NCBI GenBank assembly: GCA_024743315.1
Contig: JANSWU010000001.1
Location: forward strand, 62,001 to 126,000
Reading direction: 5' to 3'
Length of the DNA: 64,000 nucleotides
Source of the DNA: Hyphomonadaceae bacterium
Lineage (GTDB): Bacteria; Pseudomonadota; Alphaproteobacteria; Caulobacterales; Hyphomonadaceae
A program made the position numbers and the translations under genes. Below are positions 1,322-41,593 of the stretch, in pieces; position 1 is the first letter of the stretch; each line of letters starts with the position of its first letter. The notes under the pieces are model-generated. The model was given only the letters and a program-made list of their open reading frames with translations. It was not told the DNA's origin and made no database searches.

Positions 1322-1615
1322 TCATTGATTGATCCGCGCGTACAGGTCATCCCAATTGGGATTGTCCGCTTCGATCAATCGGATCTTCCAGGCGCGTTTC
1401 CAGGCTTTGATTTGATATTCTCGCGCTTTCGCAGCCTCGCGACTTTCATGCGGTTCACACCAAACGAGCCGATCGATGTGGTATTTTCGGGTGAAGGCGC
1501 TGCCTCGTCCTTCTCGATGCTCGAAGGCGCGCCGGGCGAGGTCATCGGTGTGACCACAGTAAAGCGTGCCGTTTTTCTGACTTGCCAGTAGATAGACCCA
1601 GAAATGCTTGTCCAT
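1322..1615 (-). CDS. GIY-YIG domain endonuclease-like protein (UPF0213/YhbQ type)
   Basis: A 97-residue single-domain protein starting MDKHFWVYLLAS. It carries the GIY-YIG core with VYLLAS as the GIY strand, NGTLYCGHTDDLARR as the YIG strand plus helix with the conserved Arg, and a later HESREAAKAREYQIKAWKR helix ending RLIEADNPNW. This is the common compact GIY-YIG family of unknown physiological role. An in-frame ATG 36 bases upstream lies inside the adjacent palindromic element, so the start at 1615 is preferred. The gene sits downstream of glyS on the same strand. The motif Tyr in YIG is replaced by C-G (LYCG), within family variation. Whether it is catalytic is unknown. Confidence 0.85.
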   Translation of the reverse strand: MDKHFWVYLLASQKNGTLYCGHTDDLARRAFEHREGRGSAFTRKYHIDRLVWCEPHESREAAKAREYQIKAWKRAWKIRLIEADNPNWDDLYARINQ

Positions 1616-1626
1616 ATTTTCCCGTT

Positions 1627-1718
1627 GATACCTGCGCAGGCAGGTATCCATGGACAGAATTTGGCTTCAAGCACTCTGGGGTTGCAACCGTCCCTGGACC
1701 CCAGCCTGCGCTGGGGTC
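1627..1718. repeat. Two-hairpin REP-like palindromic element, copy 1
   Basis: Hairpin A has GATACCTGC (1627-1635) pairing with GCAGGTATC (1640-1648). Hairpin B has GACCCCAGC (1697-1705) pairing with GCTGGGGTC (1710-1718). Both arms are perfect 9-mers with 4-base loops. The element fills the gap between the glyS stop and the GIY-YIG start. The same two-hairpin arrangement, with shared flanks (ATCCATGG after hairpin A, TCCCTGGACC leading into hairpin B), recurs in inverted orientation at 25560-25650. Related elements with different stems lie at 15958 and 28037. Confidence 0.85.
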
Positions 1719-1730
1719 GGCGGAAACTTA

Positions 1731-3800
1731 TTACCCCTCAATTTTAGAAAAATCAGCGACCGTGCCGATCGCGGCGCGCATTTTGTTGAGCAGATTGAGG
1801 CGGTTCTCTCGAACTTGAGCATCATCCGCATTGACCATGACGCTGTCCGGGCCGTCAAAGAAGGCATCGACCGGGCCACGCAGACCCGCGAGCGCTGACA
1901 TGGCGGCAGCGAAGTCTTCTATTGCCAGGGCAGCTTGTGCGGCAGACGTGCTGTCGGAAATGGCTGTAAACAGCGCTTTTTCTGCTTTGGCCTCGAGCAG
2001 TGCCTCGTCGACCGCCCCCTCAAAAGCGCGTTTGTCTTTCTTCTCTTCGGCCCGAAGGATGTTCGCCGCGCGTTTATAGCCTGCCAGCAGGTTGGCTCCA
2101 TCCTCGCTATCGAGGAAGGCTGCCAGCGCTTCAACGCGTTTAACGATCAGGACCAGATCATCCTCGCCCAGCGCGAAAACGGCGTCGATCAGGTCATGCC
2201 GCTGGCCTTGGTCGCGGAGATATTGTTTGAGGCGATCGGCGAAGAAGTTGGCGAGATCGTCTCGTTTTGCATCCGACCACTCGAACGTCCGCGCCGCCGC
2301 GTCGAATATTGCGTTTAGTGGCAGGCGAGAGTCATTCTCCAAAACAATCCGAACCACACCGAGCGCCGCGCGGCGCAGCGCAAACGGGTCTTTTGATCCG
2401 GTCGGTTTTTCGTCAATCGCCCAAAAGCCAACCAGCGTGTCGAGCTTGTCAGCCAGCGCGACGGCGATCCCGACCGGTTCACGCGGCACCGCATCAGACG
2501 GCCCTTGCGGCTTGTAATGATCGCGAATGGCATCTGCGATGCGTGCGTCTTCGTCCGCTTCGAGCGCATAATAGCGGCCCATGACGCCCTGCAATTCCGG
2601 GAACTCATAGACCATTTCAGAGACCAGGTCGGCCTTGGCCAGGCGCGCGGCGCGCTCGGCGAGATCAGCATCGGCGCCAACCGCCGGGGCGAGTTCACGC
2701 GCCAGCGCCGCGACTCGCTCGACCTTGTCGGCAATCGTCCCGAGCTCTTTCTTGAAGTCGATGCGCGCGAGCTTTGGCGCCATCGCCTCCAGCCCCGTCT
2801 TTTTGTCATTCTCCCAAAAGAAGCGGCCATCTTCGAGCCGGGCCGACAGGACTTTGCGATTGCCCGCCGCGATCGCCGCGCCACCATCAGTCGCGTCAAC
2901 ATTGGCGACGACGACAAAGTTCGGGGCGAGCGCGCCGGTCTTGGGATCGCGCACGGCGAAATATTTCTGGTGCGTGCGCATCGAGAGCTGGATCACTTCT
3001 GGCGGCAGTTCCAGAAAAGCCGGGTCCATCTCGCCGAGAATCACAACCGGCCATTCGGCGAGGCCCACCACTTCTTCGAGCAGGCTCTTATCCTCGACCA
3101 ATTCCAGGCCGCTGGCGGCGCAGACGGCTTTCGCGTCGGCTTCAATTTTCGAGCGGCGGTCGTCACGGGTCAGGACAACATGGCCCGGCCCGCCCAATTG
3201 TTTGGTATAATCCTCAAGCCCCGTCACTTTGAACGGTCCGCGTCCATGCACGCGGTGGCCTTCGGTCTCGTTGCCGCTGGCGAGACCATCAATCTCGAAC
3301 GGCACGACCGCGCCATCGAACACGCAGATAATCCGCTGCAGCGGGCGCACCCAGCGCAGCTCACCGCGTCCGGTGCGCATGGATTTCGGCCAATGGAAAT
3401 TGCGGACAATGTTTGGGATCAGCTCGGCAATGATGTCAGAGGCCTCGCGCCCCGGGATCGTGCGCGTGGCGACATAGAAGTCGCCTTTTTTGGGATCAGA
3501 TCGGACGTCCGCTTGGTCAATCGAGGAGAGGCCCGCGCCGCGCAAAAAGCCCTGCACCGCCTGGTCGGGCGCGCCGACTTTCGGCCCCTTGCGTTCTTCG
3601 ACGACATCGTCGGAGCGCGCGGGGACGTCCTGACAGGCCACGACCAGCCGACGCGGGCCGGACATGGACACGGTATCGCCCACGCTCAGACCGGCCTCTT
3701 GCAGGCCTTTGACCACCGCATCGGCAAGGTCTTTTTCCGCTTTCGCTTGCATGCGAGCCGGAATCTCCTCGGAGAAAAGTTCAAGCAGCAGGTCGGGCAT
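1731..3800 (-). CDS. glyS: Glycyl-tRNA synthetase beta subunit
   Basis: A 689-residue protein starting MPDLLLELFSEEIPARMQ, the hallmark N-terminus of GlyS, and of normal family length. The beta subunit pairs with GlyQ in the alpha2beta2 class II synthetase and carries the tRNA-binding and C-terminal anticodon-recognition (DALR-like) regions. LSMRTHQKYFAVRD and the DKLDTLVGFWAI/DPFALRRAALGVVRI segments are typical. It lies downstream of the caspase-cyclophilin gene on the same strand (78-base gap) and four genes away from glyQ. The stop is immediately followed by a palindromic repeat that may act as its 3' end. Confidence 0.98.
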   Translation of the reverse strand: MPDLLLELFSEEIPARMQAKAEKDLADAVVKGLQEAGLSVGDTVSMSGPRRLVVACQDVPARSDDVVEERKGPKVGAPDQAVQGFLRGAGLSSIDQADVRSDPKKGDFYVATRTIPGREASDIIAELIPNIVRNFHWPKSMRTGRGELRWVRPLQRIICVFDGAVVPFEIDGLASGNETEGHRVHGRGPFKVTGLEDYTKQLGGPGHVVLTRDDRRSKIEADAKAVCAASGLELVEDKSLLEEVVGLAEWPVVILGEMDPAFLELPPEVIQLSMRTHQKYFAVRDPKTGALAPNFVVVANVDATDGGAAIAAGNRKVLSARLEDGRFFWENDKKTGLEAMAPKLARIDFKKELGTIADKVERVAALARELAPAVGADADLAERAARLAKADLVSEMVYEFPELQGVMGRYYALEADEDARIADAIRDHYKPQGPSDAVPREPVGIAVALADKLDTLVGFWAIDEKPTGSKDPFALRRAALGVVRIVLENDSRLPLNAIFDAAARTFEWSDAKRDDLANFFADRLKQYLRDQGQRHDLIDAVFALGEDDLVLIVKRVEALAAFLDSEDGANLLAGYKRAANILRAEEKKDKRAFEGAVDEALLEAKAEKALFTAISDSTSAAQAALAIEDFAAAMSALAGLRGPVDAFFDGPDSVMVNADDAQVRENRLNLLNKMRAAIGTVADFSKIEG

Positions 3801-3878
3801 CAGGGCGCATCTCGTCTCGGTCTAAATCAGTGACGCGGCATAACCTGATGTCCCGGAAATGCAAATGCTCGAATGCCG

Positions 3879-5657
3879 CTAATAGGCAACGCGGCTGGGA
3901 ACCGGGCGACGTTCACAAATCCGCACGCCGCTCGAGTGACGAACAAAATTCTGATAATCCGGCCCCGTCGCACGCTGCACGTAGGCGATCGGACGGTCCG
4001 GGTCTTCCATATCGGCGGCAATCCGCGCGGTCACGATCCGATCCGGATTTTCCGGCGGATGACCGATTTCCAGCGTCTCAATGACATCCATGCCATCAAG
4101 GATGCGTCCCCAGCCCGTGTTTACGCGGCTCAGATTGTCGAAATCTGTCAGGTCCTGATGCTCGGCCCATCGAATATTGATGAAGAATTGTGTCTCGGCC
4201 GTGTCTAGGTCGGTCATCCGCGCCGAAAACACCGTGCCCGGGCAATTCATCGGCCAGAACGTGATTTTCTGATCGACGGGCCAAAAAGCCTCGAGGTCTG
4301 GATCTTTGTCGGTGATGACCCATCGGATCGGCATGCCGGACAGATAGCCCTCTTGCAGGCCTTCGCCGAACGGGCGCTCATTCTCGATCATTTGCTGAGC
4401 GTCTTGGTCGAATGGTTTAGTCTGATAGAACTCGGCTGGGAGTTTTGGATAGTCGACGCTGTGCGCGGTCCTCACATCACCGCTCTGCACCACAAAGGCC
4501 TGCACCACGCGATGAAAATCGACATTGTCCAAATGCCCGGCGCGAACGATCTGCTTCATTTGCGCGACATGTTTCGGGGCGAGGTCCGGAAACATCTCGA
4601 TCAGGACACGGCCATTACTGGTCGTGAACAGAAGCAGGTTTTCCGGATCGACGCCGCGCCAGTTCAGATTATCTTCTTGAGCCGCGATGATTTCGGACGG
4701 CAAATTGCGCGCGCCGGCAGCACAAGGCGGATTGGCCAGATTGCGCCGCGCAACCTCCGCAAACTTGCCATCGGGATAGGTGTCGAGATGGCGCTGATAC
4801 TTGGTGCACGGATCGATCGCGGTGTAGGAGCCGCTGGAGAGGTAGATCCAATCCTGGGTCTCCTGGTCAAGGTCCGGGGCGTCTGTTTTGCAAGCGCCCG
4901 CAAAACAGAAATCGAGCGAAATATCAGAATAGATGGCCGGGCGTTGCTGGTGTCCAACGCCGGTCGCCAAAGCGGCAACTTCATTGCGCGCTTCGTCGAC
5001 ACTTCGCATCAAAGGTCGTCCGGGGTCCCTGAGTTTCGGCAACAGGCTGCGGGTGAAAACCGAATAAGGAGACGGGTCATCCGGGCTGAGCCGGTCCAGC
5101 GCCTTCTGACGCGCGCCTGCCGCGTAAACAACCAAAGTACCCTGAACCATTTCTTGGCGTACGAGGCCGCGGGTCATGGTCCGCGTGCCAAGATCAAAAG
5201 GATTGTCGCGACAGGCATCAATGATGGTGAATAGAATGCCTGGCTTACGGCCTTTAAGGTCATCGAGCACGGTCTCACTCAAAGACACTGTGGCCCGTTT
5301 CAGCATGCGTTCGCTGGTCTGTTGGGGCGCATCTTTCAAGGCGAGAAAATTATCACCGCCATCCGACCAGCCATGCCCGGAAAAAATGAACGCAACCTCG
5401 TCGCCAGGCTCAATTGAAGCGGCAAAAATGTCGAACGCGTCCAAGAATTCTTCCAGGGTTGGGTCGAGCAGACGCGTCACCTGAAAGCCGAGATCAGTCT
5501 CGAAGACTTCAGAATAACCTGTGGCATCCCCGATCGTTTTCTGCAGATCCGTCAGCTCTTCATAATCGCCGACACCAACGATGAAGGCCCGTTTTTCAGC
5601 GCTCGCGACCTGTCCGAGCCCGAACAGAATGATCAGAAAAATAAGCCAAAAACGCAT
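3879..5657 (-). CDS. Secreted caspase-family (C14) protease fused to a cyclophilin-type peptidyl-prolyl isomerase
   Basis: A 592-residue protein with a cleavable signal peptide (residues 1-20, ending QVASA), so probably periplasmic. Residues about 22-250 form a caspase-like p20 domain: AFIVGVGDY strand, catalytic His95 in FIFSGHGWSDGGDN and catalytic Cys149 in IDACRDNPF. Residues about 335-560 form a cyclophilin domain: LFTTSNGRVLIEMFPDLAP, then FHRVVQAFVVQSGDV with the active-site Arg383 and Gln391, and QFFINIRWAEHQDL. The middle (250-330) has four cysteines and a short link (PCTKYQRHLDTYPDGKFA) resembling a helical repeat. Both enzymatic signatures look intact. The gene is embedded between the CDGSH gene and glyS. 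A caspase-less paralogue of the second half is encoded at 40706-41593. Substrate and role are unknown. Confidence 0.88.
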   Translation of the reverse strand: MRFWLIFLIILFGLGQVASAEKRAFIVGVGDYEELTDLQKTIGDATGYSEVFETDLGFQVTRLLDPTLEEFLDAFDIFAASIEPGDEVAFIFSGHGWSDGGDNFLALKDAPQQTSERMLKRATVSLSETVLDDLKGRKPGILFTIIDACRDNPFDLGTRTMTRGLVRQEMVQGTLVVYAAGARQKALDRLSPDDPSPYSVFTRSLLPKLRDPGRPLMRSVDEARNEVAALATGVGHQQRPAIYSDISLDFCFAGACKTDAPDLDQETQDWIYLSSGSYTAIDPCTKYQRHLDTYPDGKFAEVARRNLANPPCAAGARNLPSEIIAAQEDNLNWRGVDPENLLLFTTSNGRVLIEMFPDLAPKHVAQMKQIVRAGHLDNVDFHRVVQAFVVQSGDVRTAHSVDYPKLPAEFYQTKPFDQDAQQMIENERPFGEGLQEGYLSGMPIRWVITDKDPDLEAFWPVDQKITFWPMNCPGTVFSARMTDLDTAETQFFINIRWAEHQDLTDFDNLSRVNTGWGRILDGMDVIETLEIGHPPENPDRIVTARIAADMEDPDRPIAYVQRATGPDYQNFVRHSSGVRICERRPVPSRVAY

Positions 5658-5728
5658 GGTCGTCCCTTACACCATCGAGGCCGAACCCTGATGATGGCAG
5701 GTCAGAGAAAAATGACAATAAGCCGGGC

Positions 5729-5968
5729 CTAAAGATTATTATGTGCGCCGTCGCAGAACGGCCCTTTGCCCGTCCGCTTACAGGCACAGAGGAAGACTTT
5801 GCCAGTCTTTGGGGCTTCCCAGCCTTGCGGGATGAAGTCCGTATCCTTGTGAGAGCCATCACAAAACGGTTGGCCTTTTGAGCGCCCGCACGTGCACCAC
5901 CAGTACATTTTGCCTTCTTCAACGTCGACGGCGACCGGTTCCGTGCCGCCAATTTCCGGGTCTGCCAT
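5729..5968 (-). CDS. CDGSH iron-sulfur domain protein, two CDGSH motifs
   Basis: A 79-residue protein with two zf-CDGSH motifs in tandem: CTCGRSKGQPFCDGSH and CACKRTGKGPFCDGAH. Each supplies the three Cys plus one His that ligate a 2Fe-2S cluster in mitoNEET-type proteins. It should therefore bind two 2Fe-2S clusters in the cytosol, with a redox or Fe-S storage role. The start codon directly abuts the cupin stop (no gap), which indicates co-transcription and probable translational coupling in the glyQ operon. Confidence 0.93.
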   Translation of the reverse strand: MADPEIGGTEPVAVDVEEGKMYWWCTCGRSKGQPFCDGSHKDTDFIPQGWEAPKTGKVFLCACKRTGKGPFCDGAHNNL

Positions 5969-6331
5969 TTAGAGGGCCTCCATGTCTGTCACAGTTCGTT
6001 CCGTCGCCGCACCATCGCCCGTATTGACCACGCTTGAGGGTTCGATCAGCATGATTTCGCACTCTTCATCCGCGCCGGGTCGATGCTCGGTGCCGCGCGG
6101 GACAATGATAAACTCGCCGGCGCGCACGATCTCTGTGCGATCCCGAAAAGCCATGCGCATCTCGCCCTTGATGACCACGAACATTTCGTCCTCATCGGCA
6201 TGCTGATGCCAATCGAAATCGCCTTTGATCTTGACCAGACGGACGTCTGTCTCATTCACCCGGCCCGCCAGTTTCGGTTGCCAGTGCTCCGAGAATTGCG
6301 AGAATTTTTCCGCAAGGTTCACTTTACTCAT
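5969..6331 (-). CDS. Single-domain cupin
   Basis: A 120-residue cupin. Motif 1 is G-DFDW-HQH-ADED-E-MFVVIK-G, with both His and the Glu of the metal site. Motif 2 is G-EFIIV-P-R-G-TE-H with the last His ligand. A small metal-binding beta barrel is therefore expected; the substrate cannot be told. The ATG overlaps the stop of the upstream lipoprotein gene (ATGA), and its own stop abuts the CDGSH gene. The family is widespread in alphaproteobacteria as uncharacterised mannose-6-phosphate-isomerase-like cupins. Confidence 0.9.
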   Translation of the reverse strand: MSKVNLAEKFSQFSEHWQPKLAGRVNETDVRLVKIKGDFDWHQHADEDEMFVVIKGEMRMAFRDRTEIVRAGEFIIVPRGTEHRPGADEECEIMLIEPSSVVNTGDGAATERTVTDMEAL

Positions 6332-6765
6332 GGCAGCGGCTCCTCATGAAACTGTGCGCGGATGTTCGGAATCTCGGCATTGGTCATGTCGAACATGACG
6401 CGTCGGGTGTAACCGCCGCGATAGCGCTCGCCATCTTTGAAGCGCCAATCTGCAATATCGGCGGTGAGAAACGGGACCTCTTTGCCGCCAGATGTTTCTC
6501 CTATGAAGCCTGCGAATTCCTGACGAATGTTCGATAGCTCTTCATAATCCCGGCCGTAGGCGCTTGACGGCATAATCACCGTCACCCGGAAATCGGAATA
6601 GGCCGCATTGCCACTGCGCCGAGCTTCAAAAAAGACAGGCAACGTGCTGCGCGCCTCGGCAACCGCATTTTGCATGTCACGGTCTTTGTACATGGCTGGC
6701 GAGCCAGGCGTCGGGCTGCAGGCGGCGAGCCCCAGGATCAGAAGGGCAGCCAACCAGCGGATCAT
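6328..6765 (-). CDS. DUF2314-like lipoprotein
   Basis: A 145-residue protein beginning [18 protein letters not shown], a clear lipoprotein signal with LAAC lipobox. The mature part begins with [22 protein letters not shown] and ends with [20 protein letters not shown], matching the DUF2314 pattern (leading helix, ISDW-like tryptophan motif, GGYT/GGFT strand). It is probably anchored to the inner leaflet of the outer membrane. The start at 6765 is chosen because it overlaps the glyQ stop as ATGA; an in-frame upstream ATG would extend into glyQ and spoil the signal peptide. Function is unknown. Confidence 0.8.
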
Positions 6766-7664
6766 GCCTCTGCCCGCTCCGCTTCTTGCTGCGCCCACTG
6801 TTCCGCCGCGCCGCGCGCAAGATCTCGAACGCGGCCAATGAAAGCCTGGCGCTCGGTCGGTGAAATCGCCCCGCGCGCATCAATCAGATTGAACACGTGA
6901 CTGGCTTTCAGCGCAAAATCATAAGCTGGCAGCGGCTTTCCAGCCGCCCGCAAGGCATTGGACTGATTTTCGCAATCGCTGAACCAACGCTGCAGCATGT
7001 CAACGTCTGAATACTCGAAATTGAAAGCCGATTGCTGGCGCTCATTCTCGATGAACACATCGCCATACGAGAGCGGTGTATCGCTGTCTGGCGCGTTGAA
7101 CGGCAGATCGTAGACATTGTCGACGCCGAACACGTACATGGCGAGGCGCTCGAGCCCGTAAGTCAGCTCACCCGAAACCGGGAACACGTCGAGGCCGCCG
7201 ACTTGCTGGAAATAGGTATACTGGCTGACCTCCATGCCGTCGCACCAGACTTCCCAGCCAAGCCCCCAGGCGCCGACCGTGGGGTTTTCCCAATCATCCT
7301 CGACAAACCGGATATCATGCACCGTTGGATCAATCCCGATCTCGTAGAGCGAGTTCAGATACAGATCCTGCAGGTTCTTCGGGTTCGGCTTCAGGATGAC
7401 TTGATATTGGTAATAATGGCCAAGCCGCATCGGGTTTTCGCCATAGCGCGCATCGGCCGGGCGCCGCGACGGCTGGACATAAGCCGCGCGCCAGTCTTTC
7501 GGCCCGAGCGCCCGCAAAACCGTGGCCGGATGCAACGTGCCTGCGCCGACTTCCATGTCATAAGGCTGCAGGATCGCGCAGCCTTGCTCGGCCCAATAAT
7601 TCTGCAGGCGCAGGATCAGATCCTGAAAGGATTTCGGCTTAGCTTTGGCTTGCGGTGCGGTCAT
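6762..7664 (-). CDS. glyQ: Glycyl-tRNA synthetase alpha subunit
   Basis: A 300-residue protein starting [20 protein letters not shown], then [53 protein letters not shown] and [16 protein letters not shown], all diagnostic of the GlyQ catalytic subunit, at the normal length of about 300. It binds glycine and ATP and activates glycine. The start at 7664 gives the canonical N-terminus; a longer in-frame extension upstream is not conserved-looking. It is first of a tight run (glyQ, DUF2314, cupin, CDGSH) with start/stop overlaps, and its beta subunit gene is four genes downstream rather than adjacent. Confidence 0.98.
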
Positions 7665-40705: not shown

Positions 40706-41593
40706 ATGCGATCCACACTACTTGGCGCGCTCGCCCTCACCCTGTCTGCCGCCTGTCAGGCCCAGGATGCGAGGCAGGTGGAGGTGACCCAAGCTGAGCT
40801 GGATTCGGCTCTGACCCCGGATTGGCGAGATGTGTCGCCAGAAAACCTGATCCTGATCGAGACCCAATACGGCGACATCATTGTCGAGCTGAACCCTGAT
40901 TTTGCCCCCAATCATGCCAATCAATTCCGGCACTTGGTCCGCGATGATGTCTATAATGGTATTCGCTTTTACCGGGTGATCGAAGCGTTTGTGGCGCAAG
41001 GCGGCTTGCAGGAAGATGAAATTATCGAGCAGTTCCCAACTCTTGAGAATGAGAATGACCGCCCGCTCTCGGACGCCGCTTTCGTTCCCCTCGGAAATGC
41101 AGATCTTTTCGCACCTATGGTCGGGCACATAGATGGCTTTGCAGTCGGGCGCAGCGAAGCTCTGCAGTCGGAATGGCTACTGCATTGTCCGGGTGCCCTC
41201 GCCATGGCGCGGGACACTGATCCAGACAGTGGCAGCACGGAATTCTATATTGTTCTCGATGCCCAGCGTTACCTGGACCGAAACTTGACTATATTCGGCC
41301 GGGTGATTGATGGCATGCAATATGTCCAGAAGCTCAAACGCGGCGATCGCGCGGTCGAGAATGGGGTGATCCAAGCCCCCGATCAGGGCGACGAAATCTT
41401 ATCCATGACCGTCGCGGCGGACATGGATGCTGCGATCCGTCCGAATTATCAGGTTCAAATGGTGCCAAGCCAGGCGTTTGAAGATGCCAAGACGGCGAAA
41501 CGTGTGCGGGAAGAGGATTTCTTTTATCGTAAACCGCCGGAAGTGCTCGATATTTGCGGGTTCGAAGTCCCGATCCGCAAGGTCGAGCATTGA
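40706..41593 (+). CDS. Secreted cyclophilin-type peptidyl-prolyl isomerase
   Basis: A 295-residue protein with a signal peptide (MRSTLLGALALTLSAACQAQ; possibly a lipoprotein). The cyclophilin core shows ENLILIETQYGDIIVELNPDFAP, RFYRVIEAFVAQGGLQ with the active-site Arg and Gln, and TEFYIVLDAQRYLDRNLTIFGRVIDG. The C-terminal Cys-containing end (VLDICGFEVPIRK) echoes the caspase-cyclophilin fusion at 3879-5657; the two are likely paralogues. GAAGGAG precedes the ATG. Role in envelope protein folding is inferred. Confidence 0.9.
   Translation: MRSTLLGALALTLSAACQAQDARQVEVTQAELDSALTPDWRDVSPENLILIETQYGDIIVELNPDFAPNHANQFRHLVRDDVYNGIRFYRVIEAFVAQGGLQEDEIIEQFPTLENENDRPLSDAAFVPLGNADLFAPMVGHIDGFAVGRSEALQSEWLLHCPGALAMARDTDPDSGSTEFYIVLDAQRYLDRNLTIFGRVIDGMQYVQKLKRGDRAVENGVIQAPDQGDEILSMTVAADMDAAIRPNYQVQMVPSQAFEDAKTAKRVREEDFFYRKPPEVLDICGFEVPIRKVEH

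Follow-up and report, generated by a model that had tools for sequence, protein, structure and literature searches.

A caspase-AquaCyp cyclophilin fusion between glyQ and glyS in a Hyphomonadaceae bacterium, at the place of a caspase-WD40 protein in another genus

The fusion gene and its locus

The gene described here lies in a 64,000-nucleotide stretch, the window, of contig JANSWU010000001.1 from a Hyphomonadaceae bacterium. It is encoded on the minus strand at window positions 3879..5657 and reads from ATG at 5657 to TAG at 3879 through 592 codons without an internal stop; the plus strand over the same positions contains internal stops when read in frame. The open reading frame, Pfam, and codon statistics assign four parts to the 592 aa product: a signal peptide, a paracaspase-like C14 domain, a helical linker, and an AquaCyp cyclophilin. 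Pfam places Peptidase_C14 at residues 22-247 (81.1 bits, curated cut-off 21.4) and Pro_isomerase at residues 343-544 (81.7 bits, curated cut-off 21.7). The fusion frame was favored by the codon statistics in all 10 overlapping 100-residue windows that cover residues 1-550, the junction included. The first-pass annotation, made from the letters alone, had proposed a single 592-residue caspase-cyclophilin protein; with one unbroken frame and both domains over the cut-off this is confirmed, the gene being on the minus strand. The caspase-AquaCyp architecture is almost certainly real.

The first 20 residues (MRFWLIFLIILFGLGQVASA; 5598..5657, minus strand) form a signal peptide-like segment without a lipobox cysteine, identified by eye and by hydropathy and modeled as a helix at residues 2-14. 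The start of the protein, MRFWLIFLIILFGLGQVASA-EK, resembles, as judged by eye, a Sec signal peptide ending in ASA-E, and the hydropathy maximum is 2.98. The signal peptide proposed earlier is thus borne out, and the fusion protein is probably exported by Sec. A scan of the locus returned five promoter-like sites (1.3 expected) and two terminator-like sites (4.3 expected).

The gene is flanked upstream by glyQ (6762..7664, minus strand), identified by homology and synteny, and downstream by glyS (1731..3800, minus strand), on the same strand as the fusion. Between glyQ and the fusion are DUF2314 and cupin genes, both assigned by Pfam, and a gene for a CDGSH-type iron-sulphur protein; the latter is the immediate upstream neighbor (5729..5968, minus strand), was recognized by its motif, and occupies the same position in several close relatives. 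The names glyQ, glyS, ispB, trmN, ppdK and CDGSH-type are putative assignments from the sequences. A small ORF between glyS and ppdK (window 1322-1651, minus strand) is one which we take, from its motif, to be GIY-YIG-like.

A glyQ gene was found in 27 of 29 genomes of the window's own genus, that of the window included. The glyQ-glyS interval in 20 same-genus relatives is 176 to 1650 bases long and holds differing small genes, and in none of these 20 loci (of 28 relatives) did the stretch between the two genes match a caspase or a cyclophilin, even with E allowed up to 10. The interval (window 3801-6761) is a spot of variable content, where small lipoprotein-like, DUF2314, cupin and CDGSH-type genes are seen. 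Because its gene content varies between genomes, no functional tie of the fusion to glyS is drawn from the position. The earlier placement between glyQ and glyS holds as to position and strand.

The caspase half

The Peptidase_C14 domain (residues 22-247; 4917..5594, minus strand) has a paracaspase, MALT1-like fold according to Pfam, modeling, and Foldseek. The catalytic His95 (codon at 5373..5375, minus strand) and Cys149 (in DACRDN; codon at 5211..5213, minus strand) are identical in all 87 aligned caspase proteins, as are D44 and D147, so the dyad had been numbered correctly in the first-pass annotation. An AlphaFold2 model built from 86 alignment rows gave pLDDT values mostly above 90 over this half. 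MALT1 chains were ranked first by Foldseek (best E 9.7e-17; TM 0.81 normalized to the caspase-only chain 3v4o_A), and the nearest solved relatives by sequence are also MALT1 paracaspases (best E 6e-6). Thus the structure prediction that the annotation had called for gives a confident caspase fold with an unbroken dyad, and the domain belongs to the C14 family by profile score over the cut-off, His/Cys dyad, and predicted fold.

MALT1 is the closest solved protein in both fold and sequence, but the identity is only about 20%; MALT1 itself is eukaryotic and cytosolic and carries Ig and death domains. In the printed alignment D44 and D147 coincide with MALT1 aspartates, which we take to form the S1 pocket for Arg. 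Since these two invariant acidic residues align with the MALT1 aspartates, a P1 preference for Arg/Lys is suggested, and the caspase half would cut after Arg or Lys.

The PADLOC defense model PDLC02987 "caspase" also matches the fusion (E 4.3e-11), the match being confined to residues 24-173. Neither by name nor by Pfam (two of them were Pfam-scanned) do the neighboring glyQ, glyS, cupin, CDGSH-type and DUF2314 genes belong to defense systems.

The linker, the junction, and the WD40 orthologues

Another genus of the family (here called g4) has caspases 59-72% identical by tblastn to that of the fusion in 14 of its 42 genomes, among them that of Hyphomonas jannaschiana. In all 14 of these g4 loci a caspase-WD40 gene lies between glyQ and glyS; ispB, trmN, and ppdK flank glyQ/glyS in the same order in 13 of the 14, the fourteenth contig being too short. 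A Pfam scan of 87 caspase proteins detected WD40 repeats in 14, which are the 14 g4 orthologues, and a query with the WD40 tail of one orthologue matched exactly these 14 and none of the others. The g4 proteins and the fusion share the locus, the caspase domain, the linker, and a similar N-terminal start; they differ in the C-terminal half, which consists of WD40 repeats in the former and a cyclophilin in the latter.

The helical linker (residues about 262-318; 4704..4874, minus strand), defined by the junction alignment and the models, is common to the fusion and the caspase-WD40 orthologues up to A313 (...NLANPPCA), and both models place helices at 265-274, 283-293, and 300-308. Similarity by tblastn to 12 of the 14 orthologues stops at residue 313, and to the remaining two at 314 and 317 (4704..4721, minus strand), i.e., directly after the NLANPPCA-like stretch. 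Because the orthologous caspase at the same place ends in WD40 repeats, we conclude that the tail was exchanged, with the junction at about residue 313; the WD40 was probably the older tail. A search of the fusion's own genome for the lost propeller elsewhere returned only two partial matches, 28-29% identical, in one frame.

Other near relatives also differ in their tails. Among the seven nearest non-WD40 relatives whose tails were scanned, one has Sel1, one has an FGE-sulfatase-like domain, two have OmpA, and three have no Pfam hit. Because near relatives carry Sel1, FGE-sulfatase-like, or OmpA tails, tails appear to have been exchanged within this caspase subfamily. The OmpA tails fit an envelope location. 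The OmpA-ended related caspases occur in two genomes of the family (locus L029, 910-2490, minus strand; locus L030, 1057-2472, minus strand), where OmpA would tie them to the cell wall. The genome of the fusion itself has six further caspases. One of them, outside the window at locus L004 (1417-2925, plus strand; contig C4, 27555-28328), is 59% identical to fusion residues 1-258; its tail has no Pfam hit, but contains a DIDGDGYDD stretch resembling a calcium repeat.

The origin of the caspase was considered from the flanking genes and from a tree. The glyQ and glyS of the window are 95-97% and 72-87% identical, respectively, to those of the six nearest same-genus loci, versus 86-91% and 60-74% to those of the 14 caspase-WD40 loci. 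Since both genes are nearest to the window's own genus, g4 was not the source of the block as a whole. A recent transfer of the whole glyQ-glyS block from g4 is accordingly not supported; only the caspase resembles g4. In the caspase tree the fusion lies in an unresolved fork with groups of five and eight WD40 orthologues and others, and its end branch is ordinary (0.30; median 0.24). On these sequence comparisons, the caspase could be either an old inheritance, lost in the other same-genus genomes, or the product of an old transfer.

The cyclophilin half

The cyclophilin half (residues about 330-592; 3882..4670, minus strand) is of the AquaCyp293 type, with NIC-domain segments, and extends beyond the Pfam Pro_isomerase span as a complete AquaCyp. 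Its best PDB match is 5ex2 (E 3e-42, residues 326-588), followed by 5ex1 (E 2e-22), the next cyclophilin being at E 1.6e-9; 5ex2 and 5ex1 are AquaCyp293 and AquaCyp300 of Hirschia baltica. Foldseek likewise ranked 5ex2_B first (E 4.7e-25, TM 0.83 normalized to the target) and also matched 5ex1. A second model, built from 36 rows, gave a pLDDT of at least 70 in 22 of 27 ten-residue blocks of this half and 56-69 in the other five; its caspase half is weaker, with blocks between 41 and 93. Each model is therefore good for one half only, the first for the caspase and the second for the cyclophilin, and with pTM values of 0.56 and 0.51, respectively, the placement of the domains relative to each other is unreliable.

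According to PMC4898713, AquaCyps are extended at both the N- and the C-terminus, contain an insertion of 40-50 residues and a buried disulfide, and have an essential Arg and Gln, which correspond to R383 and Q391 of the fusion. Counterparts of both extensions and of the insertion are present in the fused half in a 28-row alignment. Arg383 (4509..4511, minus strand), the equivalent of hCyp18 Arg55, is identical in all 27 other AquaCyps, and with Phe388 (4494-4496) and Gln391 (4485-4487), the latter matching the catalytic Gln63, makes up the conserved PPIase core. The intact-looking cyclophilin reported at first pass, with its FHRVVQAF..QSGD motif, is upheld: the motif occupies residues 381-394 and the Arg/Phe/Gln core is kept. 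The two AquaCyp disulfide partners, Cys472 (4242..4244, minus strand) and Cys581 (3915..3917, minus strand), are also found in 27 of 27 other AquaCyps; the bond itself is predicted, and the two cysteines would fit an oxidizing compartment.

The fused half thus resembles AquaCyp293 of Hirschia baltica (5ex2; PMC4898713) in the cyclophilin core, the N-terminal, inserted and C-terminal NIC segments, the disulfide cysteines, and the Arg/Phe/Gln core. In contrast to that free-standing protein, it has no signal peptide of its own, is about 32-37% identical, and has a changed pocket rim and extra loop residues. AquaCyps as described are free-standing proteins of 280-330 residues; being the C-terminal half of a 592-residue protein, the fused half is better called an AquaCyp domain than an AquaCyp enzyme.

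Conservation within this half is uneven. The residues at all 23 columns that are invariant across the 27 other AquaCyps are kept, in an alignment that contained the fusion itself, so that this count leans towards the fusion. Over the 239 columns compared, the residue most frequent in the family occurs at 97 (41%). Of 14 nearly invariant columns four have changed, one of them from Asp to S510, and the pocket rim differs as well: hCyp18 M61 is V389, and the H126 position is N513 (Tyr in AquaCyp293). With these changes in nearly invariant columns and in the pocket, PPIase activity may be reduced or redirected. The end branch of the cyclophilin half is the longest of 29 rows (1.59; median 0.26), so this half has changed quickly, and the long branch makes its precise position in the tree uncertain.

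The long branch and the four altered columns, and the presence of the fusion in one genome only among the matches listed, would suit a non-adaptive fusion, in which a chance event swapped the tail in a single lineage and left the cyclophilin half to drift without function. We consider this very improbable, since all 23 family-invariant positions are kept although only 97 of 239 columns match the commonest residue, codon bias is continuous, both cysteines and the catalytic residues are kept, and there is no frame damage. The pattern is that expected of a working, altered domain rather than of a decaying one.

The hydropathy maximum of fusion residues 250-335 is 0.63, whereas every one of 27 standalone AquaCyps reaches at least 1.60 within its first 35 residues. 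The cyclophilin half therefore has no signal peptide of its own and could reach the envelope only as part of the fusion. This, together with the 23 invariant positions, argues against assembly error as well as against decay. An assembly or sequencing artefact joining two genes would agree with the fusion being carried by one assembly only, but it is an exceedingly remote explanation: besides residues 250-335 having no hydrophobic segment, the coding signal continues evenly through the junction, the assembly has eight contigs of which this one is 903 kb long, and in none of the other loci among 281 do ORFs for a caspase and a cyclophilin occur side by side. The idea that two genes had been read as one was rejected on the even codon signal, the lack of paired separate ORFs in those loci, and the missing cyclophilin signal peptide. 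The sequencing-error scenario raised at first pass, with the halves encoded as separate proteins, fails for the same reasons, no side-by-side ORFs in the 281 loci and no export signal on the cyclophilin half.

The fused copy is not the only AquaCyp of the genome, which also encodes one of the 293 type and one of the 300 type in genes of their own. A recent copy of the genome's own AquaCyp293-type gene as the source of the fused half was rejected, the identity being 34-38%. The window itself also contains a free-standing cyclophilin of the AquaCyp300 type (40706-41593, plus strand), next to what are presumably an AAA-type ATPase and von Willebrand-type gene pair.

Occurrence and earlier descriptions

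Further copies of the fusion were sought at several taxonomic levels. Among the matches listed from 105 genomes of the family, no second match over the full length (residues 1-592) was found. A query with the cyclophilin half against 398 genomes of the order returned, among about 150 best matches, no open frame of more than 488 residues and none more than 43% identical, other than that of the window. With the whole protein as query and at most three candidates scored per genome, 385 genomes of the class gave no second match over both halves among the matches listed. The 281 loci contained 213 distinct caspase ORFs, some of them representing a single gene truncated at different locus boundaries; the one gene that also matched a cyclophilin profile was that of the window, seen through four overlapping loci. 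In a plasmid collection 259 records matched, none covering 80% of the query, and the six relatives on viral contigs all matched the caspase half with at most 33% identity. Independent fusions with other kinds of cyclophilin outside the caspases examined, or distant ones outside the matches listed, would escape these searches.

Among open-licence papers, none contained both "Peptidase_C14" and "Pro_isomerase", or both "caspase domain" and "cyclophilin domain", and no description of a caspase-cyclophilin pairing was found in that literature. The pairing thus agrees, within the open-licence literature, with the first-pass impression that it was not a described architecture. As a novelty standing by itself it needs qualification: the cyclophilin tail has no counterpart among the 213 caspase ORFs, but the fusion is a tail-exchanged version of the caspase-WD40 protein found between glyQ and glyS. 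The general plan is also familiar from prokaryotic caspase homologues (metacaspases and orthocaspases), in which a C14 domain with a His/Cys dyad is joined to a C-terminal partner. PMC3501461 reports 71 Pfam domain types, C14 included, among 671 such proteins, with WD40 the commonest partner and TPR and Sel1 also among the commonest. The word "isomerase" is absent from the main text of that paper, whose figures and supplements hold the rare partners. As far as the searches show, it would be the first case of a caspase linked to a prolyl isomerase, and of an AquaCyp within a larger protein.

Models for the function of the fusion

The roles of partner domains in multi-domain bacterial caspase homologues are mostly guessed. 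For this fusion the reading that we prefer, which has about an even chance of being right, is an exported paracaspase-like Arg/Lys protease whose WD40 propeller was replaced by the AquaCyp as a docking or gating module, with the isomerase core in use. The AquaCyp half would have taken over the job of the lost propeller. It may bind envelope proteins, or its own linker, at stretches that contain proline, and, once bound, would recruit the substrate or switch it between cis and trans forms; the caspase half would then cut after Arg or Lys. Docking or gating is favored because most of the tails recognized in near relatives are generally regarded as modules for binding or anchoring, and the orthologues end in a propeller. 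Since three of the seven nearest non-WD40 relatives have tails with no Pfam hit, "binding module" is a majority guess. A stricter form of the docking/gating reading, a caspase that cleaves only once the AquaCyp has bound a neighboring prolyl bond or turned it to the right isomer, is put forward tentatively and is unlikely.

Caspases are site-specific cutters, not general degraders. This speaks against two independent envelope enzymes on one chain, a folding PPIase and a protease that removes the failures, without control of one by the other. The two active cores, which appear intact from their residues, would allow such an arrangement. PMC4898713 bears on it in both directions: AquaCyp293 is an efficient general PPIase, but AquaCyp293 and AquaCyp300 showed no chaperone activity and failed to suppress citrate synthase aggregation. 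The quality-control or cell-death pathway imagined in the first-pass annotation is likewise plausible at most, as the two AquaCyps studied showed no chaperone activity (PMC4898713) and the tails recognized among the relatives (WD40, Sel1, FGE-sulfatase-like, OmpA) are for the most part regarded as binding modules. The orthologues, moreover, have a WD40 propeller at this place and no folding enzyme, and we regard the pair of independent enzymes as unlikely.

Dimerization activates caspases and MALT1, and the junction comes right after the NPPCA stretch. Both would suit control from within the protein, the AquaCyp binding a proline of its own chain (for example NPPC, residues 309-312) or dimerizing through its NIC domain, and so switching the caspase on or off. 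The aligned WD40 orthologues, however, already have this run of prolines or one very similar to it, so it was not made for a cyclophilin. Dimers through the NIC domain are described in PMC4898713 for AquaCyp300; the fused half is of the 293 type, which is monomeric in the same source. Neither model gives a reliable domain-domain placement, and such self-control is doubtful.

Significance

At one and the same chromosomal place this caspase ends in WD40 repeats in 14 genomes and in a cyclophilin in a single one, which makes a direct test by tail exchange possible. If cleavage is in fact gated by the isomerase, proline isomerization would trigger a bacterial protease or act as its specificity filter, where the orthologues have a WD40 propeller instead. 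The fusion is thus a natural experiment on how such bacterial proteases find their targets or time their action on them.
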